Source: Fasciolopsis buskii
Lineage: Eukaryota; Platyhelminthes; Trematoda; Plagiorchiida; Fasciolidae
Assembly: GCA_008360955.1 (NCBI GenBank)
Contig: LUCM01009820.1
Location: forward strand, 186,001-250,000
Length of the DNA stretch: 64,000 nt
Direction: 5' to 3'
Position numbers and translations under genes: made by a program. Each line of letters begins with the position of its first letter. Within the stretch, counting starts at the first letter, position 1. Shown in pieces: positions 15,887-63,800 of this stretch. The notes under the pieces are model-generated. The model saw only the letters and a program-made list of their open reading frames with translations, was not told where the DNA came from and did no database searches.

Positions 15887-18800
15887 GTAAGCAAAACATG
15901 ATTTGCGAGTTTAAAACCATGCCACTTACGTTGCACTTTGTCTTTTCAGTGACAGTGGAAAAACAGCCCCCATAGACAAAATATGTTTCCACCACATTGT
16001 TCTTCATTTCAACTATAGGATCTACTTATGTATTAGGTGATCAGTTACGAAGACAGCTCATTAGCCTGAGAATGATTGCCGCGCGGCAGCTGAAGTGTCA
16101 ACCACTCACCATCGGTTGGTAACGAAGTTGCTCCATTAGGTGATAGAATATTTCCGAAAGCTGAACAATCGATGTGCGACTTACATCCGATTCTACGCAG
16201 CTATTGTTGCCATGCTACATTAACGCATCACTCACGCTGAATGATGTTTAATACAATAAGGTGTCTGAAGCCAGATGAAATGGTAGGGGAGAAGCGCAGT
16301 TCGTCAGTTGACTTCCCTCGCAACGACAAAACAACTTTCCCCTGGCGAACAAATTAAAAAAGTGAAAAAATTCACTTGAGTTTCCTTCAGGAGCACTTTG
16401 GTTTCACTATCCGCGATGGAGCCTGGAAACCACGTAGTCCTTCAAATTTTGTTCATTGGTACAGACGGTTCCCTTGGAAAGCGACTTGCAGGAGTTACTT
16501 AATGATTAGCCTAAGTTAGTTTTCGTATGCCGTGAAAGTAGTGGCCTCAAAAAACTACGCAATCATTTTCTTGATCTGCAGTACTATATCAAGACCGTGA
16601 TGGCGCGGTGGCCATGACATATGTTCAATATAGAAAACTTTGTTTCACTGATCCCGGCCCAAGATAGAAATCGCAGAACGTGAAAAACATGGTCAATCAC
16701 CCAGCACTTGTAAAATCTGGTTATTCGCGCCATTTCTGATTTCCGCTTTCGGTAGGATGATATATGGAACCCTTAAATAAAATAGACGAACGAATTTTGC
16801 ATCAAGACTGCAGCCAGTTTGCTGTGAATTGTCGTCCGCTGCTTGCTGTAGCTAGAGTGAATTAGAGACGCTTTGCATTTGTAAGGTAAAAGACAAATCA
16901 ATACGACTAGTGCGTAGGTTCCGCTGTGTTCAGCTTGAATGATTTGAAATTATATGTGCCCCACCATGCGAAAGTAAAGCACCATTCTTTGGTTCACGAA
17001 ACCAAAAGGTAAGCACAGGATTATGTGCATACTGTCTCTACTGACGCAACGAGTTTTCCGCGTACAAGTAAAATTTTCGCACAGCGGACCAGCAAGCTAG
17101 AAATGAACGGGCACGTTCACGGAAGTTTATAAAAGCAGCAGTGGAATCACTACCCAAAAATCAATCTCTATTTTCGTAGATCGTTTACATCTGCATTGTT
17201 TCCATCTTCTCTATTCGCCTTCCCGTAATCTGACCGTAAGCAACCTAGCAAACGGAGTCTGTCGATGGCCATGCAAAGCTTGCTGGTAATATGCAGATTT
17301 AATGAATTTGCAAAACTAGCAATTTGAGCTAATGGATCAGTTAGGCAACAGAAGGATGTCAGGGAGTTAATGTTACTTCTAGTTTGCCCGAAAACAGACG
17401 CACTTATTCTGTCAATTATTGTCTGGTGTAAGGTTCACCTTAGAGGCGAGTGTACGACAGAACAGACCAAGAGAGGTCACAACTAGCTTCTGAGTACAAA
17501 ATATAGGATTATTAAGACGGTGGGGACGGCTTCCGCTGTGGTCAGCACAAAACAACTTACCAACTTCAGTTGCTCAGTTGGCTGAAATCTCACTGGAAAT
17601 ACCAAATATATATATGCATATACCCAACTGCAATCACCGATCTAACAGTACGTAAACTATGAACGTTAAACTGAGGATACAATGGGTGTGATATAATAAG
17701 CATCGATATGATCAGTGTACTGTTTATATTTACCAGAGTCCAACGTTCAGTATGCTTGTAAAAAGCAAATAATATGACTGCTTGCTCAAACGCTTGCTTA
17801 ATTCGATGGGCTGAGGGTTGTACCCAATTGTTCGTGCATTTGTGTGCGACTCAATGTAATGCGGTACTTACTCGGTTGCTGAGTCAATGGGATAAAAAAT
17901 TGAGCGCAGGAAATACTCTGGACGGTGAAATTTACTTTTTGGGCGAGCTGTTTCGAGAGAAGATTTACTCAAATTGCTTCATTAATATAATAATGGGATA
18001 CCTTTAAAAGTGAACTTAGAAACCAACAGCATTTAAGAATTCAGTCTGCACTACTTCATCTGGTAAAGGGTATATCCCAGGAGACTACCCGTTGTTGTCT
18101 ATGAGGTTTTAGGCGCTAAACCTTAAGTCATGTTTACAATAAAGCCGTTTTTGCACTAACACCCAAAAGAACTGGCTTGGTTCTTTGGGCCCATTCTGTG
18201 TATATTCATTTAATTGTACCGGCGAATCACATGCATTAGCTGAAAGACCAGGAGTCTGTCGGATTGGGTTCGTGAACATCTGGCTTGGCTAAATACTAAG
18301 GTGGGCAAAACCATTGCGGGCGCTATGTCCCTAACTGGTTGACTCTAATCGCTCGGTCAGTATCACTGAAGCGGCCAGGCCAACTTACAAGATTCACATT
18401 GGGCTATCAGTGCTGGTGAAGTATCAGATCCTTACTACAACGGAGACTGTAAGCATTTGTTTGTACAATCCCCCGTTAAGCATTCAAAAGCATTCCATGC
18501 AAACACCACAACTGAGCTGGGCCATTCGTCGCGAGCGAAACCCGCCCTAATGAGTCACAGATACGAGCCGAGCCTGCGAAGGGCGTTCCTGTCATGTNNN
18601 NNNNNNNNNNNNNNNNNNNNNNNNNNNNNNNNNNNNNNNNNNNNNNNNNNNNNNNNNNNNNNNNNNNNNNNNNNNNNNNNNNNNNNNNNNNNNNNNNNNN
18701 NNNNNNNNNNNNNNNNNNNNNNNNNNNNNNNNNNNNNNNNNNNNNNNNNNNNNNNNNNNNNNNNNNNNNNNNNNNNNNNNNNNNNNNNNNNNNNNNNNNN

Positions 18801-20826
18801 NNNNNNNNNNNNNNNNNNNNNNNNNNNNNNNNNNNNNNNNNNNNNNNNNNNNNNNNNNNNNNNNNNNNNNNNNNNNNNNNNNNNNNNNNNNNNNNNNNNN
18901 NNNNNNNNNNNNNNNNNNNNNNNNNNNNNNNNNNNNNNNNNNNNNNNNNNNNNNNNNNNNNNNNNNNNNNNNNNNNNNNNNNNNNNNNNNNNNNNNNNNN
19001 NNNNNNNNNNNNNNNNNNNNNNNNNNNNNNNNNNNNNNNNNNNNNNNNNNNNNNNNNNNNNNNNNNNNNNNNNNNNNNNNNNNNNNNNNNNNNNNNNNNN
19101 NNNNNNNNNNNNNNNNNNNNNNNNNNNNNNNNNNNNNNNNNNNNNNNNNNNNNNNNNNNNNNNNNNNNNNNNNNNNNNNNNNNNNNNNNNNNNNNNNNNN
19201 NNNNNNNNNNNNNNNNNNNNNNNNNNNNNNNNNNNNNNNNNNNNNNNNNNNNNNNNNNNNNNNNNNNNNNNNNNNNNNNNNNNNNNNNNNNNNNNNNNNN
19301 NNNNNNNNNNNNNNNNNNNNNNNNNNNNNNNNNNNNNNNNNNNNNNNNNNNNNNNNNNNNNNNNNNNNNNNNNNNNNNNNNNNNNNNNNNNNNNNNNNNN
19401 NNNNNNNNNNNNNNNNNNNNNNNTCTAGAAATAAGATTTTTATCGATTTGACATCTTCCTACCGTCCAAAAGCATATTATTGTTCACAACCATGGATTGA
19501 AGTTTGATGACAACATATATTAGCTGAAGAATGGTGTAGAAAGGTACCTCTCCTAGGGTTTGCGCTTGCAGACATTTTCCTGCCGACGACTCAGAAGAAC
19601 ATATCAACATAAATAACCGGTAACATGTCGTTATTGTGGAATATATGCGAAACTTCAATCGTGGCTAATTTTCTTAACAGGGGTCAAGCGAGAACTACTT
19701 CAGGGGTCCAATAAATCACACATGAACCTAGGGTTTATTCTGGGACTGGAACATAACAGCTCACTTTCATTTCTTATTACTTTGATGCATTGGGGAACGG
19801 AACAGCTTCTGGAAGGATGTATTTGTCAAAAACCAATTAGATGGGACAAGCAAACAGGGTGTTTGAATCGAACGAATAATCAAAACTCACAATATGACCG
19901 ATATTCGGCTTTGTATTTTGCTGATAGGAATGAACGTTGCAGACAGGAACATCACGAAACTGTCTGTGTACTCCACTGACCACACGTAGTTTACTGAAAA
20001 GGGATGTTTGCTTTTCTCTTATTCTTGAACATAGTTCTGGAATCTTCAATTTCGGGGAAAGTAAGGTCGCAGAGTTTAACCGCAAAATATGACGATATGT
20101 CACACTGGATATTTATTTGTTCATTTATCTTCAGGTATGGGAGATGTGACAGCATTTCCCGTAGGCATAGCGTATATCTTACGGATGAAGATTCATAATA
20201 ACTGGTTTAAAAAAGTCAGTCTTTACCAGTCTTTGTGCAAAAAATAATTTGGCGCCTTCGTCGGTGGGCCCAAAAGCAAGATGACAAAAACAATTTCTCC
20301 TCCGTAAAGTACGCCCTCTATGAAAGGAAAATCTTTGGGCTGAAAAATATCAATTTGCTTCCTGACGTTTCAGAATCGGCACGTTGCGAATCAGTAGTGC
20401 ATAGGTGCAGTTAGTGACACAATGAGAACCTTGAAAAGAATGGCACCATTTAGCATTACGGAGTGGGCTCGAAACGATACACAAGTCGTCAGTCATCTTG
20501 AACGGTTCTCGGTCACAGTTGCTGACGGTTAGCTATCGATGAGATGTCCATGTGACATCTGTCAAACGAACCAGTTCGAAAGCAAGCACTTGTTGTCACC
20601 TGAGCACGTTGGTTGAATTCAATTGATCCTGTTAATTAAAGAATGCCTCTGATAGTCATTAATTAGTGCTGGGAAAACTGTCATCGTTTGTTCTAATGCT
20701 ATTGGTTCATTCGAACCATACCTCAGTGGGACAGATCATTTCCGGTTTTGTAATCATTCATCCATCGCCTTTCATTTTCACACCCATCCCTACCTCAACC
20801 AAAATGTGGACACTTTATCCGAACAG
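15887..20826 (+). other. unc-13 intron(s), contains gap and probably one unseen exon
   Basis: The protein lacks about 34 residues between the exons at 15812 and 20827, so at least one exon of around 100 nt (phase 0 in, two bases out) should lie here. I did not find it in the visible sequence; the 826-base gap is the likely place. Nothing else recognisable except a short TA-rich run near 17610 and a weak hammerhead-like trace near 20350-20415 on the minus strand. Confidence 0.7.
18598..19423. other. Assembly gap (826 N)
   Basis: A run of N from 18598 to 19423. It falls inside the intron interval in which one unc-13 exon is expected but not seen (the region equal to GDDAW..YFDE..EEIVDEF..RYG..NIYQAMT in other animals). 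Open frames reported across the gap are made only of unknown residues. Confidence 0.99.
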
Positions 20827-37675: not shown

Positions 37676-37808
37676 AGTAGGAACTGGATGTGGACAAAAG
37701 AACGACTTTCTTGGAGGCATAGACCTGATTTCGCGACTTAAGCTGTCCATCATGCATGCATACCCAGTGGTCTTCTGTCCAAACATTTCAATATCTGCAC
37801 ATTCCTTG
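37676..37808 (-). repeat. Diverged single copy of the 307-bp hammerhead unit
   Basis: On the + strand the order CTGGATG-TGGACAAAA, TTTCGCG, ATCATGCATGCATACCC and TGTCCAAACAT follows the array unit (CTGGATGCGTAAACAAAA, TTTCGCG, GTCAGGTATGCGTACCC, TGTCTAAACAT). Read on the minus strand it keeps CGCGAAA and a GGTC cleavage site, while the CTGANGA box is altered. Old, presumably inactive copy. Confidence 0.55.
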
Positions 37809-39220
37809 TCCTCTGCTAGGTATTTAAATGAGATTCTAATTACCAGACTAACGTTGGACTGTGCCAACGTATGGATGATTGATCAGGAGAGATCTGGGTC
37901 CGCCCTCTTGATGAATAGCAATTACCTTGCAACCAGTCAAGTGTTTCGGGGAAATATAACTCTTTCATCCTTTTATGAAATCATTACCCTATCAGAAATG
38001 GAGGTCATCAGCAATGCAGGTTTCCTTAGAAGAAATAGACCTGCCGATCCATTTTTCAAGCATAGTGATTAACCGTTTGCATCAGACGTGACAATATTTC
38101 CGCGGTCCATCGGAAAAAAGTGAATGCTTTGGAATTGGTATAAATCGATGACTGCGCTGGTTTACATGAAGGGTGATAAATCCCTCGATGATGACGGTGA
38201 AGGAATACGTTTGGTAAATATTACCACCCAAATACTGGCTACCATTATTCACCATCGGTTATCAAGTGCTCCCTATGGGACGTACTTATGAGAATTATTT
38301 CGGTTTCCTACCCAATGGCGGTTGCATCGGTCACATGTTTAATGTGTGACAGGTCTTGATGTTTGACCTCTTTTATCTGATGCTAGTTTAGAGCGGTTTG
38401 TTTCCTGCCTAATTTTAACGTCAGCTCTGGTACATGAGAATTACCAGGCTACGAACTTTGAGCCCACGATTAGGCTACTTGCACCGATGTTCGGGATTGT
38501 CAGTCAGTCACCAATTCGGTACAAATGCGAACTAAATGAAGATGTAAACAACTGAGGTTTGTTTATAACTTGTGACGCCAAATTGGTTTGAAGATTTTGG
38601 AGAAAAGTAGATCACCGATGTGTTTATTCCTTAATCACAGCCTCCTTCCGTTTTGTTGACGTTGATTTGTCTCTCGCTTTCATGGATTCGATGGACACTA
38701 AAGAATGTCTTCGTCAGCTTTTCGTGGTCGTTCTTGAATGAAAAATCCCCTTACTTCGAGCCCTCACCAATGCACCTGTCTTGTTTGATTGTGAATGTAA
38801 AAGTTTTGCCTGAAGCTATTGTACACCATTTTGGGGTAATGTAAATCTGTGAACGTAATTATCTTCAAAACGTTGCTGGGAGGTTCACGTGATCGTAGAT
38901 TTAATAAGTCTACAGGTGGGCGAATTCTTCAAGGTAGAAATTACGCGGGTTGTAATAAGACACACATGGATGAGCAGTTTTGTGCTGTAGAGCTGTAAAT
39001 CTCCATGGAATATTTGTTTTCCTTTAAAACCATGACAGATTAAAGAAGGTGCTTTAGTAAGTTTTGTAATATATTAGGTAACCTAGAAAGACGTGTTTAT
39101 CGCCACCTCTTGGCCAGTATTCAGTTTGTTAATCTAGAGTTTTCAAGTTTTCGACCAGCTAATTTCAAGTGGTTCCGATTTAAAAGTTTTTGCCCGAGAA
39201 TCGTTTGTATTATCGTCACT

Positions 39221-39243
39221 AATATATATATATATATATATAT
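39221..39243. repeat. (TA)n microsatellite left of the array
   Basis: Eleven or so TA units about 65 bases before the first 307-bp unit. Confidence 0.95.
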
Positions 39244-39406
39244 TTAGAGTTTAGAAGGCATACACTGAATTAATACGTTTATCGTGACGTTTCGATCCAA
39301 ACTANTCTTTGTCAGTTGGGCTGAGCCAACCTTAGGAACGAGGGCAGAATGCCCCAGGATATATATATAAGCAGGAAGTAGTATCTGGATGCGTAAACAA
39401 AATTAG

Positions 39407-39463
39407 CCCGGGAGCACACGACCGGTTTCGCGGTTATTGTCGCTCGTCAGGTATGCGTACCCG
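39407..39463 (-). ncRNA. Hammerhead ribozyme motif, type I, array unit 1
   Basis: Minus strand, 5' to 3': stem I strand CGGG, a 3-nt internal loop side, ACGCATAC; core CTGACGA; stem II GCG-ACAATAAC-CGC; GAAA; minimal stem III made of A-U and C-G around a 2-nt CG loop; T-C cleavage site (GGTC); stem I return strand GTGTGC, a 1-nt loop side, CCCG. The inner stem I has six pairs (one G-T) and the outer four. All invariant positions (C3 U4 G5 A6 G8 A9, G12 A13 A14, U16.1, H17) are present. Predicted self-cleavage lies between the complements of 39420 and 39419. A very short stem III is known from newt satellite and Penelope-like hammerheads and may need dimers. Activity is inferred, not shown. 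Confidence 0.72.
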
Positions 39464-39713
39464 ATGCTCTCTTGTCTAAACATCCACATACTTGTACACT
39501 CCGAATTGATTGATATTTCTCACCAGAATCGAATCTGTAGCAACAGGAGTGTGCATGGAAGCTCTTCGTCGAAGAGTCCACAGAAGAATCACAACTGTGA
39601 TTCGTTGATAATTCTTTGTCAGTTGGGCTGAGCCAACCTTAGGAACGAGGGCAGAATGCCCCAGGATATATATATAAGCAGGAAGTAGTATCTGGATGCG
39701 TAAACAAAATTAG

Positions 39714-39770
39714 CCCGGGAGCACACGACCGGTTTCGCGGTTATTGTCGCTCGTCAGGTATGCGTACCCG
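39714..39770 (-). ncRNA. Hammerhead ribozyme motif, array unit 2
   Basis: Identical to the motif in unit 1, 307 bases further on. A minus-strand transcript cut at units 1 and 2 would release a 307-nt monomer. Confidence 0.72.
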
Positions 39771-40020
39771 ATGCTCTCTTGTCTAAACATCCACATACTT
39801 GTACACTCCGAATTGATTGATATTTCTCACCAGAATCGAATCTGTAGCAACAGGAGTGTGCATGGAAGCTCTTCGTCGAAGAGTCCACAGAAGAATCACA
39901 ACTGTGATTCGTTGATAATTCTTTGTCAGTTGGGCTGAGCCAACCTTAGGAACGAGGGCAGAATGCCCCAGGATATATATATAAGCAGGAAGTAGTATCT
40001 GGATGCGTAAACAAAATTAG

Positions 40021-40077
40021 CCCGGGAGCACACGACCGGTTTCGCGGTTATTGTCGCTCGTCAGGTATGCGTACCCG
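40021..40077 (-). ncRNA. Hammerhead ribozyme motif, array unit 3
   Basis: Same sequence and core as in unit 1; no substitutions seen in core or stems. Confidence 0.72.
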
Positions 40078-40327
40078 ATGCTCTCTTGTCTAAACATCCA
40101 CATACTTGTACACTCCGAATTGATTGATATTTCTCACCAGAATCGAATCTGTAGCAACAGGAGTGTGCATGGAAGCTCTTCGTCGAAGAGTCCACAGAAG
40201 AATCACAACTGTGATTCGTTGATAATTCTTTGTCAGTTGGGCTGAGCCAACCTTAGGAACGAGGGCAGAATGCCCCAGGATATATATATAAGCAGGAAGT
40301 AGTATCTGGATGCGTAAACAAAATTAG

Positions 40328-40384
40328 CCCGGGAGCACACGACCGGTTTCGCGGTTATTGTCGCTCGTCAGGTATGCGTACCCG
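40328..40384 (-). ncRNA. Hammerhead ribozyme motif, array unit 4
   Basis: Same sequence and core as in unit 1; no substitutions seen in core or stems. Confidence 0.72.
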
Positions 40385-40634
40385 ATGCTCTCTTGTCTAA
40401 ACATCCACATACTTGTACACTCCGAATTGATTGATATTTCTCACCAGAATCGAATCTGTAGCAACAGGAGTGTGCATGGAAGCTCTTCGTCGAAGAGTCC
40501 ACAGAAGAATCACAACTGTGATTCGTTGATAATTCTTTGTCAGTTGGGCTGAGCCAACCTTAGGAACGAGGGCAGAATGCCCCAGGATATATATATAAGC
40601 AGGAAGTAGTATCTGGATGCGTAAACAAAATTAG

Positions 40635-40691
40635 CCCGGGAGCACACGACCGGTTTCGCGGTTATTGTCGCTCGTCAGGTATGCGTACCCG
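40635..40691 (-). ncRNA. Hammerhead ribozyme motif, array unit 5
   Basis: Same sequence and core as in unit 1; no substitutions seen in core or stems. Confidence 0.72.
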
Positions 40692-40941
40692 ATGCTCTCT
40701 TGTCTAAACATCCACATACTTGTACACTCCGAATTGATTGATATTTCTCACCAGAATCGAATCTGTAGCAACAGGAGTGTGCATGGAAGCTCTTCGTCGA
40801 AGAGTCCACAGAAGAATCACAACTGTGATTCGTTGATAATTCTTTGTCAGTTGGGCTGAGCCAACCTTAGGAACGAGGGCAGAATGCCCCAGGATATATA
40901 TATAAGCAGGAAGTAGTATCTGGATGCGTAAACAAAATTAG

Positions 40942-40998
40942 CCCGGGAGCACACGACCGGTTTCGCGGTTATTGTCGCTCGTCAGGTATGCGTACCCG
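40942..40998 (-). ncRNA. Hammerhead ribozyme motif, array unit 6 (partial unit)
   Basis: The motif is complete although the unit is cut off about 90 bases later at the TA run. As the 5'-most unit for minus-strand transcription it would be met first by a polymerase coming from the right. Confidence 0.72.
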
Positions 40999-41086
40999 AT
41001 GCTCTCTTGTCTAAACATCCACATACTTGTACACTCCGAATTGATTGATATTTCTCACCAGAATCGGATCTGTAGCAACAGGAGTG

Positions 41087-41108
41087 TGCATATATATATA
41101 TATATATA
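41087..41108. repeat. (TA)n microsatellite at right end of array
   Basis: TA run that replaces the rest of the sixth 307-bp unit after GTGTGCA. Confidence 0.95.
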
Positions 41109-41220
41109 GCCCATCGCATGTAGTCCGTCGTGAGCAAAGAGTGAAGTGTGAATCCGAATGAACAGGGGAACCTTATCAGGACCAAACGATGTAAGGAGTG
41201 TATTGAAAAATCGATGCGCC

Positions 41221-41317
41221 ATGTATTGGTTTTAATTGTGAATCAAATCAAATTTGATTGTAAAACTTGCCTTGAGAAAGACTACCCCACGGTAGTCGAA
41301 ACGTCGGCGCAATACAT
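41221..41317 (+). ncRNA. Hammerhead-like fold with altered core
   Basis: Plus strand. Outer helix ATGTATTG (41221-41228) with CAATACAT (41310-41317); an enclosed hairpin (GTTTTA/TAAAAC and AATCAAAT/ATTTGATT, 41229-41266); GCC (41269-41271) with GGC (41306-41308); then CTTGAGA in place of CTGANGA; a perfect 7-bp stem II GACTACC-CCAC-GGTAGTC (41280-41297); GAAA; and CGTC at the cleavage position. Stem III would be the self-complementary ACGT, possible only as a dimer. Conserved G5-A6 are replaced by T-G, so it is probably inactive or a relative of the motif. The GAAACGTC ending is common in Penelope-type terminal repeats. Confidence 0.45.
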
Positions 41318-44300
41318 CTACCAACAACGCTGTTTTATTAACATTATTTCATTTACATGGAAACCTTACTATCGGAGCTGCTAAAAATAATGCACAGACA
41401 AAAATGTCAGAACGTGATGTATTCGAAATAATTTTGTTGGTCCAATATTCCCATGAAACTCTACATGCAGTTGTGTATATTTTCTGTACGAACACATCAG
41501 ACAACAGGACAGGTGTATGTAAGTTAAAGCCCACTGAATTGCACGAGCATGCGGGCCAGATGCACCAGATGTTGGTGGACTGACTCGTTCTGGTTTTTCT
41601 CGCAATCTGTTCACATGCGGTTTTTGCAGGACAAACAAAATGTATCGGAAACGACAGAATGATGAATTATATATTTTCCACCTACATGGAACAATATTTC
41701 TGCCCACAGTAGTCCCGCTTGTTTCAAATGATGTTAGGCGGCTCAGGAATTTGGAATGCTGCATTATAGACTCCCTGATTCACCGCTAGTACATGCAGTC
41801 TGGCTGGGCACTGCCGAAATGGACAATTTTTGCTTTATAGCATTGCCATATACTTCTTAAGAATTTTGAGCTAAAGTTCTTAGCCAGACTAAGTGAGCCC
41901 TCTGTCTTCTCTTAGACAATTTCTAAATTGCTGCTCAGGCGAATAGCAGGTCAAAACAAGTTGATGCACGGTTGGTTCACTGAATATATGAATTTGTAAC
42001 CTGTAATCATTTTTTTTACATTTCATCTACTTATGCTTACGATCACTGAGTCATCTGCTGAATTTCTTGCACACATTCCATCATTTTATTCGATTTGGCC
42101 TCATTCTACACGAATCGTTTTTGGTAACAGCAAGGTTTCATTTGATGCAACAAAGTGACTAATAATTACTGGACTTCTCCTTTTCGCCACTCAACATTTT
42201 CGTCTAATAGTCCGTATTCATCTGCCTATCTACCATAAACATGTATCACACCTGAGGCAGGGAACTGCGGATTCAACACCTAATTGGTCATATTGATGCA
42301 GCTGGTCCTTTTCTTCGAGAGAAACCAACCTCAGTATGTCAGGAACTTAATAAATTAGGTAAAAAGACATTACTTGCCATTACTAATGATAGCATGACAG
42401 GAGCTACGACGAATTGAAATCGGACTATACTGATTTATTATATTGATTCTTTCGCATTGAATCTGACAGACCGGAATCACAGCCTTCATGAACCATAGAT
42501 TTCTTACCTTTCTGTCTTCTTTGCGACACACTAATGGGGTTTGTTTAGACGGACTTGGTGCTTCGGAGTGTCTAGTCCAATTAGATACGTTTTCCTGAAA
42601 GTATCTGCATGAAGTGAATGTTTGCTGCGTACAACGTTCTTGTGAAGTTTGTTAGCGACCTCTATCGCCAGAACGGTGGTTTAATTACTTGGCAGTTGTG
42701 AATTGAAATCTTCAGCTCGAGATTTAACACTATTACCCTGCAATATTCAATCAGACGTTGTGAATATTGTCAATTCTAAACTAATGAAATAATCAGCATG
42801 GAAGAAACCGCTAACGGAACCGCCAAAACATGAGTTCAGAAATCCCACGGAAGTGAGTAACTGAAGTCCGATAAATAAAAACAGGTACCATGAGCTGCCT
42901 AATGACCTCTTGGCTGAATGCTCACTTCCACGGCCGAGACTTAGCTATCCCATGATTTTTCCTAGCATAGGGTAAGCCGATCTCCGTTACGTGAACACCA
43001 AGCTGGAGACATCGAAGCTGGTCTTTCCACCTCTTGAAAACAGTTCCCAGTAAGTGGATGAATCCTCAGTTAAGAGTGATTAGTTTAAAATGTGTGTACA
43101 CTAAAATTTTTGTCATCCCAGACTAAGTGCATGATGCATACTTGTTCCTTTCTCACTGTATATCTTTTCTTTACTATACGATTTTTTTTCCACGGCTGCG
43201 AAAACCCAACCTGTAGTTTTTTGGTGGCGATTCTATGAAAAATTTACTAACTAGAGTGAACTCATCCGGTATTCATTTCGTCTATTCTTCTTAGGCACAT
43301 TTTCCTCTAGCCATTGGAATTACGCCCGTTGTGAATCCATGGCAATGGGTGCGGAGTCGCATTTTCACCATGCATCACAAAGGCTCATGTTTGTTACTTT
43401 TGATTGAACTTTTTCAGTGATTGCTTTTAAGATTAGAGAAAGACATGGGGTTGGGAATTGTTTAATATGAAGTAACCAACCTTTACTGGAACTTCGCTCG
43501 AAACGCATTAAGAGACCGTTAGATAACTCTTCCATTCATTTCCTCTCCTCCTTTGGTGTTTCGGAGGCACAACAGTCTTGCTGACTCAAAATCACGAAAC
43601 TGAAGTCAGGAGGAAAGTTATTCCTGTTCGTGTACTCGCCATCTTGCACCCGAACTACAGCCTGTCTGGACACAATGCAAATCGTTCCCGTATCAGTCCA
43701 TCTAACAAATGTTCGGTCGATTGTACGCGTTGATCTGCAATTGATGACAGGTCTAGATTGGAAGCGTAGACAAGAGTACATACGCAAATACCGAGTATGG
43801 AGGAGCAAGAGGACGAATGGAAGGAGAACTCAGGGTTGTTGTCTGGTCAGTTTAAGAAACGATCATTCTAGGCACTAAGAAAACAAGTGAAGGAATATGA
43901 ATTAATAAGTGAAATTGTGTATCAAACTTAACTATTGTTAAGCTGGAGCAATGCGGAATTCCTCATCGTCGGTTGGTATTTTCACCTTCATGGGTATAGG
44001 GTCTGCATGCGTACAAACTAGTGGGTTGGTTTGATTCAAACCAGACAGTTTGTTGATAGAAACTCAGACACTACGAATGACAATGACTACATTTCATCTG
44101 GCCATTGATCACTTAGTGCGTGCACTTCCGGCAGTTCGGCGCGTCTTTACAGCTGATCTTCCGTTCTCTTTCTCCCTACGCGTGTTTGAAGTCATGACTG
44201 TAAAAAGTAGAAAAGTTTGGAAATATATGCGGGTAGAAAATGTTGCGTGTGCTGACTAGATGGCCACATGACCAGGTGATGTCAGTGGGAGCTTCATGAC

Positions 44301-44749
44301 ATACACCTTTGGGATACAGGTGAAGACGATTTTCTTTTGAACCTAGGTAGACGCAAAAAATATTTCCCGCTTTCACTGAAGCTCCGATGATGCTCTACCG
44401 ATCTAAATCAAGTAGAGTAGAAAAATCACTTGGTCGTTAAAAATTTCAACCTGGATTTTAAAGCGAAATTATCTCGTCGATGGATGACATTTGTGTATTT
44501 TGGACGAACTATTTCATCCTCCATTTCGTACGATAACGCAGTCCCTTGATTTGTGCTTCCCCCGAGGACTTTTACACAACCAGAACAACCACTGCGAGCC
44601 TAACTTGCAACGTGTGATGCATCGCTTGTGCTCAGTTGGTTAGGCTGCCGCGTCGTTTTATCAGAACCATACTATTGCTTGTAAATGCTTTTTTCTGCCC
44701 ACCCATGGGTATTGTCCAGTTTATCACTATCTGTTTTTTCGCCTAACAG

Positions 44750-45082
44750 GTTCCCTCACGAAATCAGTCTCGGTGATATGTCTGCCGAAATGATGTGGAA
44801 CTATCTGTCCGAGGATCTGTCAGCCGATCTGGACCACCATGCTTCGTTGGCCCGAAAACTGATGGACTCCGGTGAACTCTTAGAGCTCACACAAAATACC
44901 GCTCGGTCGAAATTTCGCGTTCTCGGTCGTCCGCATCACGACACCACTGCTAACGCGAATGGTCGAAGTCCACGAATTAAATCATCCGATTATATGAACT
45001 TGTGCTTTCGCGTCAAATGGTTTTACAATTCCTACATTGCCGGCTTACCCCAGTGCCAAAATAAAGTCCCGGATTACCCTAA
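44750..45082 (+). CDS. unc-13: unc-13 exon k: MUN domain with insertion
   Basis: The largest visible exon (333 nt). It begins FPHEISLGDMSAEMMWNYL and ends SDYMNLCFRVKWFYNSY followed by PQCQNKVPDYP, all family-like. Between the helix ending HHASLA and the conserved KSSDYMN there are about 42 residues (roughly 44852-44978) with no counterpart in insect or vertebrate Unc-13; this stretch is polar with LGRPHH and NANGRSPR segments, probably a surface loop. The acceptor is gcctaacag before 44750 after a pyrimidine run; the donor GTGAGT at 45083 leaves AA, which joins A of the next exon to give Lys. Confidence 0.96.
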
Positions 45083-45243
45083 GTGAGTTTACAGGCTCAC
45101 GATTGTGATTTCTCAGCGCTGATTCAACGGAAACAACATGACAGATTTGTTCTTACTGTTCAGTAGTAGGAGTTTTCAAATAGATTTTCAAATGATTCGT
45201 CATCCGATGTCAACATAAAAATTGCCTTTGAAAACCACGGAAA

Positions 45244-45589: not shown

Positions 45590-45735
45590 TTCTTTTTGCG
45601 TAGACGGGATGAACGAACATTCCCGGTAGCATACAGAAATTTCTGTTTATTACCGCTCATCAGGTATGCATGTCGGCTACTCTGCTGTCGCGCCATCCAA
45701 GTACACATACTATTCGTAACAAAATCTATTCTTTC
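45590..45735 (-). repeat. Diverged 307-bp-family copy with intact stem I
   Basis: Minus strand: GCATAC, CTGATGA, GCGGTAATAAACA, GAAA, TTTCT, GTATGC. The inner stem I GCATAC/GTATGC pairs perfectly, and CCG/CGG pair beyond the internal loop. The U at 16.1 and stem II pairing are lost. The plus-strand context TGCGTAGACGGGATGAACG to GCCATCCAAGTACACATAC parallels the array unit. Confidence 0.6.
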
Positions 45736-49200: not shown

Positions 49201-52120
49201 CAAATCATGACTCAGCACTGATCTCCTTGGAATATCATGTACATTCGACAGATAGCACTGCATCAGGTGTGGCCGTTTCTGCAGTACACGTAGTTAATAA
49301 GCAGTGAGTCAAACATACTAACATGTGATATCAATGGGACCGTAAGTAGAGAAATTATCAGACACTTTTCTTTCTCGAACCTGTTGCATCGGATCAGGAC
49401 AGCCTGAAGTGACAAAACTGTTTTTATAGACTGTCACATCGATTAGGACTTTTTGTCACGTGACTGAAGCGTTAGTGGAGTGGTCCCAGTATCCTCTAAG
49501 GAGGGAAAGGGGTGGCAACCATGACTTTGAAACTTGGAGTGCCATATAAGCACGTAAAGTTCTGTTGAGTCAGATGTGTTGATGAACTGAGAGACTGCGA
49601 GTTCCCGTCTTACAGGGTAGCAAGGTGCAAGGTGAACTACTTTGAAGGAAAAGCGTTACAATATGGACACTTCGTTCATTGACTTTAAATCCGACTAAGG
49701 GAAAACCTTACTGGCCGGTTTTGACGGATGACAAATGCAGGTGCTTTTTCCAAGTGACGGAACTCTGCCCAATTCAAGCTATGAGAAGACTGATTTGTAG
49801 ACGGAGAGCTATTGCTTGAACTTCGAATGAAGTGGTGCTACAAGGTTGCTAATCGGCGGCTTGCAGTGAATGCAAACAAGAAACGATTTCGACTACCTAA
49901 TGCCCCCTGAGTTGAGACAATTCGTCGCCCTCACCATTCAAACGAAACGTTCCCCATCATACCCCGTGCTTGGATCTGGGCTTCCCAAAATGTAAGGAGT
50001 GAATAACACCACGCTAACACTGAAGCCAGTTTGAAATACCGAACTTAGTTTGTTCAGATATTGTCCTCAGTGACAATCAACAGTGCCCGAAATCCCCGAA
50101 CCGAGACACTATAAATGTGCCGTTCTCAAAGTATCCCATACAATCCAATCTTCTTTACGAAAGGGAAGTTGTTTCCAATAGTCCTCTTTGCCTTTGATAT
50201 TCATAGGTGCATGGGTCACGTTTTTTTGTGAGTAGTGTATGGGTTTGGTATTTCTATGGTTGGTTCACTGTCTTTCGGACTGTAAACTCCACGCATGAAA
50301 ATCACTTTATCCATTCAACCATGCACTGAAAAGGCACCAGACTCGAGTTCCGGTCTCATAGCAGCTTATTAATAGCAGTCTTTGGATAGGCTCTCTGTCG
50401 TCAGTGTGATAAACTAAGCATCCTAATGGATCGAGAATTTAAAATGATTGATTTAACTTGTTCGATGCAGTTTTGATGCATGCGGTCTGATAACATTTAC
50501 CCTTTAACGTTTGCGGCTTCAAGGCCCCCAAAATAAAATCTCATTTGTTTTTCCTGTCGATCAATGCCTTTTCACCCCAATCGGGTTATTTCTAAAGCCA
50601 ACATAAAAACGGGGCATTCAACAGGTTAACTTATCTATCATGTGCTCACCCCACCCAGTGGAGTTAACGTAATTTGACTAATCTGTGGCAACTCTTCTGT
50701 CATTACTGCCCAATAAATATAGTAAAATTAACAAACTTCCGGCATTGCTAGTAGGGCGAAAATTGCAGAAAAGGATGTAAACCACGGGATAATCAGAGCC
50801 TCTGATGTGAAACTTAATTTGGACATCAGTCTCCATGGGTTTGCCCCTCAATAAATGATGAAGACTACTCATCTTCACACAAAGTTTTTTTTGTCAAACA
50901 GTCAATGGTCACTACTTAGATGGTCTGTGTGAAGTGTACCCCAGGAGTAGTGTTATGGTCAACTATTTCATTGTTACTTTAAGTTCATCTAGCACAATGA
51001 ATCCTGCACGTCACTAGTCTCGACAACAAAAGTTGAACAAATCTATCGGCTCTCTTCAAGCAATCGCACAAATGATGCAATACAAGAATTGATGTGTTGG
51101 CAGTGAACTTGATTCTTCAATTGATCTAGGTAGAATTACTTTCATCGGAAGGTGTTTCTCCCCTCTGATGATAGATAAACTCTCTCTGAACTATGCAAAC
51201 TCATCGCTTTTGGTAGCGTACAGACAGGTATTCACTCGCATACGGAAAGGGCATTCGAATAATTTTCCTTCAGTTAGTCGAGGCCGTCCCAGAGCCTACC
51301 TACTTAAACGGTTATTTTCGGCGTCTTTGTTTGCCGAGCCGCACTTGAGAGACACCTGTAGCATTCTCGGGAACTGTCTCTAAACGGGCTGGCATGAAGG
51401 GAGAGGATCTCGAAAATTAAACGTCAGAAGGTAGACGTGATATAACTAGCGTCACATAATATTCCACGCATTTTGGTTTCAAACTATTGTCTTTTGCTTC
51501 TATAAAGAATTCGTTTAGTATACCAGTCAAAATCAACCGATTTTGATGAAATTTTACACGAACTCCTACGGATATCAGTATGTCAGCTTTTAGACTAAAA
51601 ATGAAGTGTGGGTGGGTGGGAGATTAACCCGACCTCAAATCCAAACATTTTGTAAAAATTTTTCTTCACTAGTGACCTTAGATGACCACCTTGCTAACTT
51701 TCGCTCTGACCAAGGTGGAAAGCACTGTCTCGTGATTATGCACGATCGAATCAAATGAGTGGCTGAAGTTAATAATCAGTCGAGCTCCATCGAACGGTAC
51801 GATTTTCTGAAATGAGATTTATAATTGAAATGCGCGCCTAGTATTGGCATATAACAATTATTCAGAATGAGCACAAATGAACAAGCCCCTTGCAGACAGG
51901 ATACAAACGAACTAATACAAAAATAACCCATTACTGCTTGTCCGGATTTATTAGAACTAAATAGTGTCTAAACCAGTCAAACGTCTAAATGGCTTCGTTG
52001 AAAATTTCCGTCCAAGTCGCATTTAGTTTAGGTGCCCGTCTAATTCTCTTCACCTATCATCAGTACAAACTCCGACAGCAGAAATTCAGACAATAACTTC
52101 CTCATTTGATTTTGTGACAG

Positions 52121-52361
52121 ATGGTTCGAGAGCCTCGTCATGCTATGGCTAACGGAGAACGATGATGTCTCTGCGAACTACTTGAGAAATGCTTACGAGC
52201 GTGACAAACAAGATGGTTTCCAATGTTCCAGTGAACATGTGCTCTACTCCAATTCCGTGGTGGACGTATTCACTCAACTGAACCAGTGCTTTGATGTGAT
52301 TCGAAAACTTGAGTGTCCTGACCGCGAGGTAGAGGGACATTTTTTGCATCGGTTCTCCCTG
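52121..52361 (+). CDS. unc-13: unc-13 exon l: MUN domain
   Basis: Eighty codons after the split Lys: [20 protein letters not shown], then [55 protein letters not shown]. These match the WFEPFVxQWLxENxxVS, RDKKDGFQxSSEHxLFSxSVVDVFxQL and KLECPDP blocks. The acceptor is ttttgtgacag before 52121 and the donor GTGAGT at 52362, phase 0. This part of MUN is the region analysed in rodent Munc13-1 for syntaxin opening (family knowledge, not tested here). Confidence 0.97.
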
Positions 52362-55300
52362 GTGAGTTAAGAACGTGTTTTTCGCAAGATCCGTCTGATT
52401 TGAATATTGTGAATCAAGTAGCATATTTTCATCACCTAATTTTTGCTTCTTGCCCTGGACATGAGCAACGAGCGGCGTATACCTCGTTGCCTTTAGGAAT
52501 AATACACCGACTGAACCAATGGTTATGATAAGAAGTTCAATTAGTAGAAGTGGAACTCGTGGAATATGATTCTGCTCAAATTTATTTGATAGCAAATTTC
52601 AAATTCTTTGAACGCATTCAATCCTATGGCCTCAGACCTGACAAGGTTTTACTCGGCCTTGCTAATCTTCGAATAATTAACCATAATTTTATCTAGTAAT
52701 GGGCATAAGGTAATCTCGTCACAATGTTCAAACTAGTGATCCGTAACCATTATTACTGCCATACAAAAGATTGCCTCCATCTTCTTCACTTGGAAACACT
52801 TTATTTCACGTCAGAAACATTCAGTTCGTCACTCCAGATCATTCTAATTAATAGTTTTACAGGCAATTTTTAGGATTGAGTATTGGTGAATTCAACAGGG
52901 TTCAAGCACGAGGTACAAAAACGTTGGCCCTTCATTCTTTATTTGTGACTAGTTATTCTCTTTAGCTGTTCCTAACCAATAGCAGACAATAAGACGAAGA
53001 TTCATCTGTGAACTTGATACAAGTCTTTTATATGTCAAGTTGTCAACGGAGCAATTTGATTCCCTGCTAGAGAGGAACCCAGTCAAGATGGGATGCATCG
53101 AGTTGACCGGAAATTACTTTTGATAATTTCTCAGCGATGTATTCCAGGGTGCACACAGCAGGGCTATAAAATTTTATTGATGTTTATTTTATGGTGTTTG
53201 CATCTCCATGTTCTCGCAATGGCTGTTTCGTTGCCCTCAATTTCCGGATGACAACTCTGATCTGATAGGATTTTTACCGAGACGGCAAGCTAGTTGTATG
53301 TTGAACCTAACTATTTTTCAACTTACTACAGTATATTTGGTAAAATAGCTACGCAAAACTAATATTACCTGGCCTTTCTGTCGAAATTGCAAAACGACAG
53401 AAGTATTTTGATGAAAAGTGTTGTAGTCCCCTGGCATTTTGTCGTGCACCAAAAAAACTACAAATCAACTGTCTGACAGAACTGTTTCGGTTTGCTGTCG
53501 TGAGGAAGTGATCTTTTAACGGATAAGTCAATTAAAGTTAAACGTTTCAACCGCTTTGGCCGAAATTGTTTATTGGATGTGAAAGCAAGTACCGATCAGG
53601 CAAACAGCCCGGTAAACCCACTTCCGAAAAGGAATTGCTCCTATCCTCTCGATGGATTTCGAAAATAACGTAGAGCGTGAGTATGAAGTGAGTGACTTGA
53701 CTCCAGTCACCCATTTCTGGTACTATCAGTTAGCTGTTCACATACAACTGATCCAGATCGAATTGTGCATTCACTGAATACTAACATGAACGCTCTGCCG
53801 AATGATGCGTTTCCGGTTGACTGGCAACACACGACCCCAGTTGTGAGCAATTATTCTGCCTGATTCCGCTTCACCTCATATTCCCGTATGGGAATGGCGC
53901 GTGGGTGTATGGGAAGCTAAATTAATACAAGGTGCAAAAATAAAGTAGCAGAGCTATAGGACATTCCATTTTCCGGATAAACCAATGCCAATGCAGTTGG
54001 CTTAGGTCAATGGAACCAACTGATCCAACCGGACTTCGTAAACCTAACAGGTCACTTGACTACACTGCAGTTTTTGAAATCACCATGTAGTTCATAGGGG
54101 GTTGTTTGTAGCATGGATATCTACATCGGGGTTTGAGCAACTCAGTAGTGAACGATTTTGTTTTACTGTTATTGCCTAACAAAAAAGTGAAACAGAAGAC
54201 AGGGAAGCCGAAAACTTTGTTCACAACGGTGCGTAATTGGGAGTGTATCATTCTTTCTTATTTTTTCACAACAAACCTGAATGACAGACATACAGCGCAG
54301 CAATCTCAAATTGCAACCAACGATATCAGAAAACAGACTTGCAACATCCACTAGGCAATTTGCAAAGAAACAAACAAAAAACAAATGAGCCTAAAATGCA
54401 GAACATGAGACACACATCTGCAAGAATGATTCTCAAAAATGTTTGTGATTCACTTGTCAATTCAAACGTGTCACACTGGCTGATCATGCTAAAATGAACC
54501 GATTCACTAACTGTGGTCATAAATATTGCTTTACCTTTTGCCTGTCTTCATCAGTTCGATGGAAAATTGGGTGAACAATACGGAAGGGCAGAATACTGAA
54601 ATGATCAAAATTAACGCCAGCACCGTTTTCTCAAACTACATTTAATTCCAGTTAAAATAAACTGGTTTCCTCCTATCACTTCGAGAAGGCTGCGCTGATG
54701 TTCGAATTCTCTCAGAATCCTCTTGAATATAATGTGACATAGTCCTGGTGCTTAGTTGTCCTTTTGTAATGCATATAATTGTGAAATCACTTGCCATCAC
54801 AGCTCCAAATCTCAGTTAACCGTTATGGCGTAATTGTTACAAATGATCTGTGCTGCTCAATCGCTGTGTCCTAAGACGAAATCCAGTCTACAATGGATTA
54901 TTGTGCGGTAAAAACTTTGACCGCTAGTCTATTTGTATTGGGAGTCGATAATTCACTAAACATCAAAAGCAAATCAGTTTAGTTTGGTTTTTTACAACCA
55001 TTGACGTTCCAACAAAGTGCTCCAGTTCTGGATGCTATCTCACCGCACTATTTACTCGAAGCGACAAGCGACAAGCAAACGGGAAAAGTGCGTCATCGGC
55101 AGCAAAATGATGAGTTGAAGAATCATACAGAGAAGTAAAGGTTTAGAATATAAGCACGTCACTGACGGTTACAATCAGCCATATCACCCACTGTCTCCAA
55201 CCACCGTTTTGACGGATCTGAACTCCAACTCTGTAGTCCAACATGGACTGCATGATGAATTTAACTGTTTGACAGAAAGCAACCACCATCTTCTGTTGGA

Positions 55301-59547: not shown

Positions 59548-59768
59548 ATAAGTAGTATCTGGATGAGTGAACAAAATTTGCCCCGAAGCAAACGATCGGT
59601 TTCGCGGATATTGTTGCTCGTCAGGTATGCGTATCCGGTACTCTCTTGCCTACATATCCTTATACTTGCAAATTTCGAATTGTTATGTCTCACCAGAATC
59701 TAACTTGTATCGTCAGAGGTGTGCATGGAAGCTCTTCGTCGAAGAGTCTACAGAAAAACAGCAACCGT
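59548..59768 (-). repeat. Diverged 307-bp-family copy with hammerhead remnant
   Basis: About 220 bases aligning to the array unit from AAGTAGTATCTGGATG to CAACCGTGA, with the same TCTTCGTCGAAGA near-palindrome. Minus strand: GCATAC, CTGACGA, GCAACAATATCCGC, GAAAC, CGATC, GTTTGC. Core boxes and the cleavage U-C are intact, but stem I has one mismatch, stem II one, and the C-G of stem III is C-A. Followed directly by a TA run, as is the array. Confidence 0.7.
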
Positions 59769-59796
59769 GATATATATATATATATATAATATACAG
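59769..59796. repeat. (TA)n microsatellite
   Basis: TA run directly abutting the 307-bp-family copy. Confidence 0.95.
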
Positions 59797-60693
59797 TGAC
59801 CGTATTACCTAGAATGGGGGACACGTCAGTATTTGTTCAGTGATTCCCACAACAGCTGAAAATCGCAAACGATATTGCGTAGAACAGAACCAATTTACTG
59901 GTAATGAAATATACTATTATTTGCAAGCTGAAAAATACAGGTAAATGAGTACTTCATGGAGCAGCTCGTTTAACGTTCTTCATTCGGATAATTTTTTTGG
60001 ATGGGCCAATTCCTCAAACTAGTGATCAAGGTAGTGGTTACATGGTCTCACAAACCACTTGAGCTGAATGGTTGCGACTGGTCTTCCTTCTTGATAACTA
60101 TGGAAATGAGATCAGGTTGCTATGCCCCACCATTGATGAGGTCGGATTTTTTGTGCTCAGGTAATCCAACGGGTAGTATGATGGTTATAAGTCACATTTA
60201 ACAAGTTGTGTGCATCACCCTAGCCCACCCCCCGTTGGCAGCGGAAGCCGTTTTGCATTTCTGGCATCCAGTTCGACGCCGAATTCGGAGACATTCCCAG
60301 AGCTGGGGTTTTAAGACGTCTTGAGTTGAAATGCGCAAAATAATTCACTGATAACAAATCAAACGAACTATTTTGTCATTTTATGTCCTATTTGGAAGAT
60401 GGAAATCAATGCTGATGGATATACTGTAACATCTTGATTGTTTGTTATAATGGACGTTATTGGTAGATCTGGTTTTCTGTCGCGTAATCTCTGGTCGATC
60501 ATACTGCAAAATGCAACCACGTTATTGTGGGACTAAAATTAGCCACGAGGTACGTCTATTTCAGAAAAAAATTGAAGAACAACATCTTCATTGCTCGTAC
60601 ATTTATTCTAGCTCAGTCACCTTTGCTGACGTGTGATTTTGTGTGTTCTCCTTGTCTATGTGCCTCCGATACACCTGGGAAAAAACCCAAAAG

Positions 60694-60848
60694 ACAGTGG
60701 AAAAAGTGTTACTGGCGTACACGGATCGCGTTCTTGCGGATTTTCCTTCCTATCAGACCGACGGACGCGTCGCGTGCATTTTAGTGAACAATACTCAACA
60801 ACTGCGTGTTCAGCTGGAAAAAGTCTACGAGACAATGGCCCGTGACAG
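60694..60848 (+). CDS. unc-13: unc-13 exon m: MUN / MHD boundary, last visible exon
   Basis: Encodes [20 protein letters not shown], then [20 protein letters not shown] and YETMARD. The block [19 protein letters not shown] is a signature of Unc-13. The start at 60694 is chosen because FSL from the previous exon plus TVEKV equals RFAKTIVKV in length; the AG used (ccaaaag) has an A-rich rather than pyrimidine-rich run before it, with a better tract some 35 bases upstream. The donor GTCAGC at 60849 leaves AG in phase 2. Reading on would add nine codons and a stop at 60871-60873, so intron retention would truncate the protein. The next exon is not found by 64000. Confidence 0.93.
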
Positions 60849-63800
60849 GTCAGCCGGTTATCCTCCTCACTGATTTTTATTTTGCGCTCGTGTACTGTGC
60901 CGGACGATCACAAATGGTGGTACTTAAAATCGAGGAAATTGCTGACGTTCCTCGCCTGAAGTCTTAAAAATCTATTTTCCGACAACGATTGGGATCAGGG
61001 GCAAACACCCATACTCCTTTAGAATTCTTTTCTGTATGACACTTCATTCAGTTTAGATAAACAGTTGTGTAGCTGTTTTATGCTATTTATTCTGCCACTT
61101 GGTTTATTTTGACTGATTTAATGGATGACTATTTGAGAAACTGACAAGGCGGATTCATCCGTGGAAGAAATGTAAAAGCAGAAGATTTTGGCGATCCCTA
61201 CACCACCTGGACCAAACCGACTTTTTGGTCATTGAATATGAATGCATGTAAATATCAGTACTTAGGTATGTAGACTTAGATATATATAAATCTCTATGTA
61301 CTATGCCTGCCTATTTCTGTAACCGCCATGGTAGCCAACTGCATGTTGCGCATGAGAATAGTAGCGAAACGAGAGCGAATAAAAATCTACCATAACTAAC
61401 TGAGTTGGCCAGTGGCATTAAGGGAAGTCTTTAGTCCTCTTCGCACGTCCTCTAGCATTGATAGCAGAACGACGCTTTTAATTCGCCTTAAGCTTTTTAT
61501 GATTCTTTTAGACTCCAAAGACTTTTGAAGGTCTTCCATGAGCACGACCATCTATATTATTATTTAGTCTTCAAAGTGTTCACTGTGGTTCAATTTCGGG
61601 GAGATCATATATTGTATTACTTTTCATAATTTGTACTCTTTATCACTGGAGCCTTTTAGCAAGCACTCTTTCAGAATCGGACGGTATCAGTCACTGCTAC
61701 CGAATCAGTATCATATTACCAACCGGTGATGCTGATACACTTTCAGAATTTCCCTTATTAATATTCCCGAATGTCTTAGTATTCACGAGGTACGCCGAAT
61801 TACCAACATGTACCATGAATTAATTTACAGGCTTCTACTGTGACGTATGTTTGTTAACTGCATTATGACCATATAAATGTGAATGACCTTGGGAGCTAAT
61901 ACGCGGGTGCTTGAATATGAGAAATAAAAACTAGTAAGTTTCACCCGTCAGTTTTGTTGATGAATGCAGGTAATGTTCCGTAAAAGACTTTTAAAATTGT
62001 CATTCCAAACAGGAAATCCTTCAGAACAGCTGATATCCATGTTTTCATTCAGGTTGTTCATCTTGACACGAATAAAATAAGCAAAATATTTTCAGTGGAT
62101 GAAACAGTGGACATGAATAGGAGAAATTTCTCATTTTAATAACGAAGATGTTCACCGTATTCAAACCCAAGACAGCATAAGTAGAGACTGGCTTTTCCGG
62201 AAGAAGATACTTGCTGTGCTCCATCAGAATTTAGTGCCCGTGTTTCTTTTAGTATGGTCGTTTTTGTTCAAATTGATTCATTTTATGCGTAAGCGCACAT
62301 AGTTCTTTGACTCTTTTAACAATAGTCCGCAGTCTCAGCTTCTATGTTATCCATGATACGTTTGACGTCTTGACACACTAATCGGACGGGCTATTCGCAC
62401 TTTGGATATTACTACCGAAGTTTTAGAATTTGCAGCCTAAAAAACGAAAATAAGTCCATGCTTGAATTGCTGGATATCATATAAAAATAACCTAAAATTT
62501 ACTGATATGCAATAGCTGGCGCGTCGGTTAGCGTCGTTTATCGACGCCTTGTTTCCATTGATGCGAAAGACATTGCCAGCGGGATCCCAAGTTGAGCTGA
62601 ACACTTGGTAAGTAAAATGAGAAATCTAAAATTTTGGCAAATCTGATTGGGCAAAACCAGAGCTCGTAACCCGTCGTTTTTGAGCTTCTCGTTTCCGATT
62701 CATTTCTTGTAATACAAGTTCAACTAATTTGTTTTTTTAAGTTATTTCTTGTTGAGCCGAGGGAATTTCAAATGATGCATGCTGGATGCACTTTGGCAAG
62801 ACTGGGGCAGTCGACCGGAAACAACAAGACAACTTTCTTTAGGAAATAAACACCGATTTTTCGTGCAGTCAACTTCTAGAGCAATCCAAAGAACTTTCTG
62901 CTTGCACTTGGCATCATTTAGCATTGATTACGATAGAAATATGTGCAATTTACGTCATTTACAGCTAACGGGTAAGCAAGATGTTTTCAACTTCCGTGTT
63001 TGGAAACACATGTGTTCAAGTACAAAAGCGTCAAAAAATTTCTAATAAGCAAACCGAAATAGTCATTCCAGTTTTAGGCTATAAAGGGTTCGTGGAAATC
63101 ATGGACAAACAGGCTAAATAGGAAAAACAGAAAGATCGCTGTGAGGTACGAAGACCTGTTGAGGGATCAGTAATGATCCCCTCCGAAATTCTGAGACTAA
63201 AATTAATGTGAATCACGTCGGATAAGCAGGACAAGTGCTGATAAATAAAGTCCAACTACCAAGTTCAGTGAAGTACCAAAAATACACAAGGAAGGAATTT
63301 GTCTAGGACCCCCATTTGCACTACCTGGAACGCCAATTAAAATCGAAATGATGAAAACATATCACAAGAAATGAGCATGTAATCACTGATAATCCACTCT
63401 TCTTGGTGAAAATATCTATGACTAAAGCTAAAGAGGATGAAATCATGACCTTCTTGGAAGCCGTAGCTTTTTTCACGTCCATTAGCTTCTACTTGACAAA
63501 GCGGATGCTATAAGAAATTGTAGAGGAACGTAAACAGAACCAACAACTGGAACCAACAAATGTGTGCTTTCAAATATGCTTCAGTCTGAAGAGCACGTCT
63601 TTTGAGCGAATGAAAGGAACTCTATAGCTTCAGGGCAAAACCAATCTCCATCTCCGCAGACAACAAACGAAAACTCTGGTTGGATTTTGATTACACGCAG
63701 TCATAAACCTAGAGCGAACTGAATTACTCGTAACTTTCATTCCCATTGACGACATTTTCAAGGTTTCCACTTTCACCAAGGAGCCAATTCATGTTGAGGA

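Follow-up and report, generated by a model that had tools for sequence, protein, structure and literature searches.

The 307-bp array lies in an intron of unc-13

The window, by which we mean the whole 64,000-nucleotide stretch of DNA analysed, contains a tandem array with a period of 307 bp at 39306–41091, for which Tandem Repeats Finder reported 5.8 copies and 99% matches, and the array described in a first-pass annotation of this DNA is therefore real. BLAST with one unit recovered five full units, 100% identical, and two partial ones; u1–114 adjoins the single N at 39305, and u171–307 (99.3%) constitutes the right end of the array. Units are numbered here in the ribozyme sense, such that the predicted cut falls between u307 (the complement of 39420) and u1 (the complement of 39419), the nucleotide that follows it. 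On the plus strand, the C2 and MUN domains of unc-13, a neuronal gene, are encoded at 10837–11055, 44685–45086, 52110–52370 and 60637–60873, and because these exons lie on both sides of the array, the array is intronic and antisense to unc-13, as had been claimed. The elements in and around the array, including a retrozyme and a Penelope-like element (PLE) that are treated below, are as follows.

39222–39243, no strand: (TA)n at the 3′ end of the window PLE piece
39244–39304, minus strand: 3′ end of a PLE, 94% to the copy at locus L052
39305, no strand: single N at which the array and the PLE end meet; an assembly join that hides the true 3′ end of the array
39306–41091, minus strand (ribozyme sense): retrozyme array of 307-bp units, from Tandem Repeats Finder and BLAST of one unit
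39359–39369 and again every 307 bp, minus strand: TA tract of the unit (u51–61), the proposed main start of reverse transcription; 3′ ends of copies lie at u59–61; unpaired in the predicted circle
39513–39519 and again every 307 bp, minus strand: second proposed start, loop u208–213 with u214; loop letters predicted unpaired, u214 paired
41090–41108, no strand: (TA)n at the 5′ junction of the array (u171), at its right end
59550–59771, minus strand: an older copy of the retrozyme, the second in the window, located in a different unc-13 intron (u126–307 at 81%, u1–44 at 86%) and absent from the earlier finding
59770–59788, no strand: (TA)n adjoining the older copy at its 5′ junction

Outside the units, the window has four TA tracts of at least 12 bp, three of which flank retrozyme or PLE elements. 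An assembly gap, an 826-base run of N, is present at 18598–19423.

A hammerhead ribozyme in each unit

The first-pass annotation had read a type I hammerhead on the minus strand of every unit and had named a covariance-model search as its check. When cmscan was run in E-value mode over 38800–41700 (2901 bases), RF02275 (Hammerhead_HH9) matched the minus strand at six places, each over model positions 1–77 of 77 with E 1.6e-5 and 32.2 bits, which upholds the hammerhead at a score below the 52-bit gathering score of the family. With the Rfam gathering scores, cmscan of the entire window gave 0 matches. The six copies, all on the minus strand, are listed below.

39397–39468, minus strand: hammerhead copy 1, RF02275, 32.2 bits, E 1.6e-5; cut predicted between the complements of 39420 and 39419, in agreement with the position given earlier
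39704–39775, minus strand: hammerhead copy 2, RF02275 match
40011–40082, minus strand: hammerhead copy 3, RF02275 match
40318–40389, minus strand: hammerhead copy 4, RF02275 match
40625–40696, minus strand: hammerhead copy 5, RF02275 match
40932–41003, minus strand: hammerhead copy 6, RF02275 match

Reading the unit directly, we found the hammerhead core letters complete, a stem I of 6 + 4 pairs with an asymmetric UAC/U internal loop, and a stem II of three pairs, all in accord with the earlier description. The two-pair stem III that had been drawn is possible, with a 2-nt loop, but GAAACCGGUC can also be read as leaving an A-U pair plus the palindromic CCGG, which is hardly a hairpin; thus, although the whole of the RF02275 model was matched, the helix III hairpin is absent from the array unit.

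Conservation was assessed in 26 aligned ribozyme sequences, which remained from 31 distinct sequences after five chimeric or cut ones had been removed. Every core letter is kept in 19 of the 26 variants and ACCGGT in 22, and 90.5% of the cells of the alignment pair in the drawn hammerhead structure. Six pairs changed on both sides, compared with a shuffled mean of 1.6, and none of 500 shuffles reached six; the covariation score was 0.113, compared with 0.071 or less for slid structures. Because the slid control structures themselves gave 1 to 5 pairs changed on both sides, and 42 of the 500 shuffles reached the score, we regard the covariation support as modest.

In a single unit the active ribozyme fold is predicted at −10.7 kcal/mol, as against −22.2 kcal/mol for the minimum free energy structure, in which GGU pairs elsewhere, while pairing of ACCGGU with a second copy of itself is predicted at −8.3. 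The predicted misfolding of the single-unit ribozyme implies that cutting may need two units paired through ACCGGU, and the near absence of helix III, together with the palindromic nature of ACCGGU, likewise indicates that cutting probably takes place between two paired units. G12 is changed to C in variant units of L036, L046 and L048, a substitution that should inactivate the hammerhead core. In L036 all three matched ribozymes, that is, all units, carry this C, and hence a template with a dead core was seemingly copied. On the modelled pairing, live partner units would cut for the dead-core ones, which would account for copying that is otherwise unexplained. A search of viral contigs for the exact ribozyme pattern gave 0 matches.

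The units belong to a dispersed retrozyme family

A search of the genome (703,196,239 bases in 6974 contigs) located arrays of the retrozyme unit on at least 40 contigs, with at least 181 matches arising from the 40 scored of 2405 first-look candidates. One stretch was taken from each of 40 contigs as the first locus set, in which the window is L011. Variant units near 317 bp exist besides those of 307 bp. The 307-bp unit falls inside the range of metazoan non-LTR retrozymes (approximately 170–400 bp), and its GC content of 45.9% is under their 50%. A circle of one unit is predicted to fold at −98.6 kcal/mol (z −5.1), a value as low as which was seen in none of 200 shuffles. PLEs, which are among the features that mark genomes with metazoan retrozymes, occur in the same genome as the retrozyme. 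We conclude that the array arose by insertion of a non-coding retroelement of 307 nt, a metazoan non-LTR retrozyme, and that the family is real and of a known kind. The kinship with retrozymes proposed earlier is thus borne out by dispersed 307-bp arrays with a type I hammerhead, but the reading as a tandem array was too narrow, since the window holds a single array-forming insertion of a retroelement that is dispersed through the genome and has a defined target; the earlier interpretation as a whole is partly supported.

The length of the array has to be read with caution. Among the 40 loci, 14 contain a single N, and nine array pieces end at one; seven of the nine (L011, L012, L014, L015, L021, L030 and L044) measure 1786–2001 bp, the exceptions being L019 (1214) and L020 (878). 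As the N-ended pieces are mostly of this one size, array length is probably set by the assembly, and the number of units in the window cannot be taken as measured; the six-unit count given earlier is limited by the assembly because the array stops at a single N. Letters resembling sequencing adapters were observed within arrays at L016:2555–2592 and L025:2027–2044, with a shorter adapter-like piece adjoining an N in L020, and their presence inside arrays indicates that the assembly is partly chimeric. Perfect units stand beside diverged edge units in L017 and L022. Identical unit pairs made up 118 of 156 within loci as against 1353 of 5515 between loci, and we had considered the identity of units within an array as proof that they were copied from one circle; this argument was dropped in view of the loci with a single N, the edge units of L017 and L022, and the adapter-like letters. 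Neither the number of units in the window nor their perfect identity should therefore be taken literally. The many identical or near-identical copies suggest recent activity, a suggestion that is weakened by the same caution about the assembly.

Insertions have fixed internal 3′ ends next to (TA)n

The 40 loci comprise 55 array pieces, in which 47 3′ ends and 46 5′ ends were assayable, the others ending at an N or a contig end. In the ribozyme sense, 29 of the 47 3′ ends lie at u59–61, at the edge of the TATATATATAT that the unit itself carries; another 7 of 47 are at a second site, u214–218, and the remaining 11 of 47 fall outside both sites. The 5′ ends are spread, with u51–57 holding 9 of 46, which is above random, so that some arrays could have arisen by TA recombination. 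A TA run of at least 8 adjoins 29 of the 47 3′ ends and 19 of the 46 5′ ends, whereas among background 14-mers such a run was seen in 33 of the 47,502 sampled from the window and in 264 of the 86,845 taken from the loci outside arrays. Because the 3′ ends are internal to the unit and away from the cut site, and complete units precede them, the template must have been circular or multimeric.

An independent set was obtained with the older window copy (59550–59771) as the query, which gave at least 43 matches from 40 scored candidates, of which 20 were taken. The 3′ end was at u59–61 in 16 of the 18 assayable copies (the other two being at u44 and u47), and a TA run of at least 8 was present at 14 of the 18. 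The older copies keep the same ends, and the signature of insertion can thus be traced through time. In the predicted circle, u51–61 is unpaired with a probability of 0.82–0.98 (the mean for the circle being 0.39) and u208–213 with a probability of 0.74–0.96, while the value for u214 is only 0.21.

Head-to-head pairs of retrozyme pieces

In 14 loci (those given below together with L085 and L099), two retrozyme pieces are joined 5′ to 5′ at an N-free joint with no more than about 25 nt between them. Pairs were assigned by reading the loci, and the N-containing joints of L010, L020 and L040 were excluded. Both outer 3′ ends are visible in 12 pairs, 6 of which have u214 at one end; the two ends, as unit positions, are as follows.

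L009: 59 and 214
L025: 61 and 61
L032: 61 and 214
L035: 61 and 214
L054: 204 and 61
L056: 214 and 60
L068: 214 and 61
L079: 61 and 183
L082: 61 and 61
L089: 60 and 61
L093: 214 and 61
L094: 61 and 44

Ends at u214–218 also occur outside the pair list, in L027 (216), L031 (214), L020 (218), L040 (214) and L087. The partner piece in L031 is 111 nt away, an N or gap intervenes in L020 and L040, and the other end in L087 is beyond the stretch. The two cDNAs of L068 consist of u217–307 plus u1–61 and of u90–214, leaving only u215–216 and u62–89 of one circle uncovered. Judged from these junctions, the head-to-head pairs look like the product of both target strands priming on one RNA circle.

A Penelope-like element shares the (TA)n target

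The 3′ ends of one PLE family adjoin retrozyme arrays in five of the 40 loci, as six copies (L011, L009, L028 twice, L036 and L046). With the L036 copy as the query, scoring 40 of 2265 candidates yielded at least 40 matches, and 30 loci were extracted. In 27 of the 30 a TA run of at least 10 follows the same PLE 3′ end (L051, L062 and L078 fall short), and 5′ truncations lie at TA in 17 of the 21 loci that could be assayed, 7 of the 30 being at a locus edge and 2 at an N. A 631-aa open frame in the PLE of L052 contains a match to RVT_1 (E 7.2e-8, 32.8 bits, cut-off 29.6) and a weak match to GIY-YIG at residues 505–546 (E 0.015, below the Pfam cut-off); its relative P0085 matched GIY-YIG at E 1.1e-8. 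Among the best 120 of 2537 relatives, the best named protein was from the lung fluke Paragonimus westermani, with 60% identity over 86%, and the next were mostly tapeworm sequences, which points to a flatworm host, perhaps a fluke. The L052 protein had no match in PDB, and the PLE fragment had none in phage records or PDB. A conserved CGAAACGTC in the PLE was considered for a hammerhead of its own in a pseudo-LTR; at this site no Rfam hammerhead was found up to E 10 in four loci.

Retrozyme pieces are present in 11 of the 30 PLE loci, a raw count that includes L051, the L036 query locus. The two elements meet at one TA tract in L053, L054, L056, L068, L069 and L074, and in two loci of the first set, L009 and L028, their 3′ ends point toward each other from either side of TA. 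In L036 a retrozyme with its 5′ end at u157 is joined 5′ to 5′ with a 5′-truncated PLE, both 3′ ends pointing outward; the locus has one N elsewhere in its array, and the joint would represent a single mixed event. At L028:2107–2324, two PLE 3′ pieces are likewise arranged 5′ to 5′, the same head-to-head pattern as in the retrozyme pairs.

Proposed mechanism and alternatives

Based on the junctions and on what is established for the class, we think it probable that the multimeric RNA is cut and circularised, that the PLE enzyme reverse-transcribes the circle from a nicked (TA)n, and that the array in the window is one such insertion. As in other retrozymes, the minus strand would be transcribed as a multimer, which the hammerheads would cut at u307/u1, probably between paired units as in newts, and the monomers would then be closed to circles, a possibility already raised in the first-pass annotation. 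The junctions suggest that the PLE enzyme would nick a (TA)n microsatellite, the TATA end of which would anneal to the exposed UAUAUAUAUAU (u51–61) of the circle. Reverse transcription would proceed round the circle once or several times and stop at random, which would produce tandem units whose 3′ end is constant and whose 5′ end varies. In many cases a further cDNA would be primed by the opposite target strand, frequently on the loop close to u214, and head-to-head pairs would result. We put forward tentatively, as somewhat less than an even prospect, a more specific scheme, in which the circle docks (TA)n through two exposed AU-rich loops, one per target strand, the PLE enzyme uses both nicks simultaneously to copy a single circle (twin priming), and the multimer is cut only between paired units, live ones carrying the dead-core units along.

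An uncut multimeric transcript could instead serve as the template, with the same element, target and enzyme, in which case ribozyme and circle would be dispensable for insertion. Arrays with G12 changed to C exist, an internal start at u61 is equally possible on a multimer, and an anole PLE with a dead ribozyme is described as inserting equally well in vitro (PMC11167929). Nevertheless, the two L068 cDNAs cover about one circle, and variants private to an array tend to be common to its units (L030, L038, L044 and L047), although filling by the assembly weakens the latter point; we consider the multimer an unlikely template. The retrozyme might also be moved by a different retrotransposon with a (TA)n target, for example a LINE carrying a restriction-like endonuclease, many of which are described as targeting microsatellites (PMC4640811), and the PLE would then only share the target. 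However, the PLE agrees with the retrozyme in its target and in the way its 5′ ends are truncated, and the two are directly joined 5′–5′ in one case; we find a carrier other than the PLE improbable.

DNA-based explanations fare worse. If circular DNA excised from an array recombined through the TA tract of its unit and so re-entered (TA)n, the TA common to unit and target and the 5′ ends in u51–57 would be expected, but so would both ends at u51–61. The 5′ ends are mostly elsewhere, an asymmetry that largely refutes this explanation, and neither the head-to-head pairs nor u214 would be explained; we give it very little credence. A local satellite that unequal crossing-over produced within the unc-13 intron, and that might have a function in this gene, would fit the perfect tandem units of the window but is hardly tenable, its local nature being refuted by copies on 40 contigs, a defined target and the older copy in another intron.

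Relation to known systems

Our preferred reading, reverse transcription of the retrozyme circle by the PLE enzyme, bears on the enzyme and route that return animal retrozymes to the genome, a question left open in the accounts of PMC7761336 and PMC7229834. Animal retrozymes have been described, with circles demonstrated in coral, mussel and axolotl (Cervera & de la Peña 2020, PMC7229834), and the same paper names PLEs as strong candidates for the partner, no more than that; retrozyme repeats are said to show no motif that reveals the partner (PMC7761336). The metazoan non-LTR retrozymes of PMC7229834 are of the same class as the element studied here, but most invertebrate ones are described with a longer helix III than that of the array unit. 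We found in the retrozyme description of PMC7229834 neither a defined target of the (TA)n type with constant internal 3′ ends nor pieces paired head to head, and the word 'microsatellite' was not found in its main text; likewise, (TA)n as a target of animal retrozymes was not found in the titles and abstracts searched, few of which came from subscription journals. What is new here is the insertion signature, the paired starts and the target common with the PLE; the element itself belongs to a type already described. The constant internal 3′ ends at (TA)n, the head-to-head arrangement and the target shared with a PLE family together make a precise model that is testable in vitro and in other genomes.

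Dimeric hammerheads are mentioned in PMC3088659. The amphibian hammerheads (newt, and axolotl HHR_Amex1) have the same near-absent helix III with a palindromic tetraloop and are reported to work better as dimers (PMC7229834); they differ from the array ribozyme in host and sequence, and dimer action of the latter is a prediction only. According to PMC11167929, the anole PLE PAc cleaves AT-rich DNA in vitro, begins reverse transcription within its RNA and extends both strands. In its AT-rich target, its internal start of reverse transcription and its extension of both strands it resembles the retrozyme here. Unlike the retrozyme, PAc is coding, and its start site is described there as non-homologous to the target, with the ribozyme not needed, whereas the start sites in the retrozyme RNA match (TA)n. 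Hammerhead repeats of schistosomes are treated in PMC8490949; the W elements and Sj-alpha, likened here by description, are flatworm hammerhead repeats that are thought to be mobile, and neither 'retrozyme' nor 'microsatellite' was found in the main text of that paper.

Other matches in the window

A very degenerate match to the ribozyme stretch on the minus strand at 37676–37786 passed nhmmer at E 1e-3 and may be an ancient retrozyme copy; neither this weak third match nor a 23-nt match at 45647 was counted as a copy. On the plus strand at 41281–41340, GTAGTCGAAACGTC stands next to a short hairpin and resembles repeats in L014, L031 and L036, and this segment is perhaps the end of another Penelope-like family.
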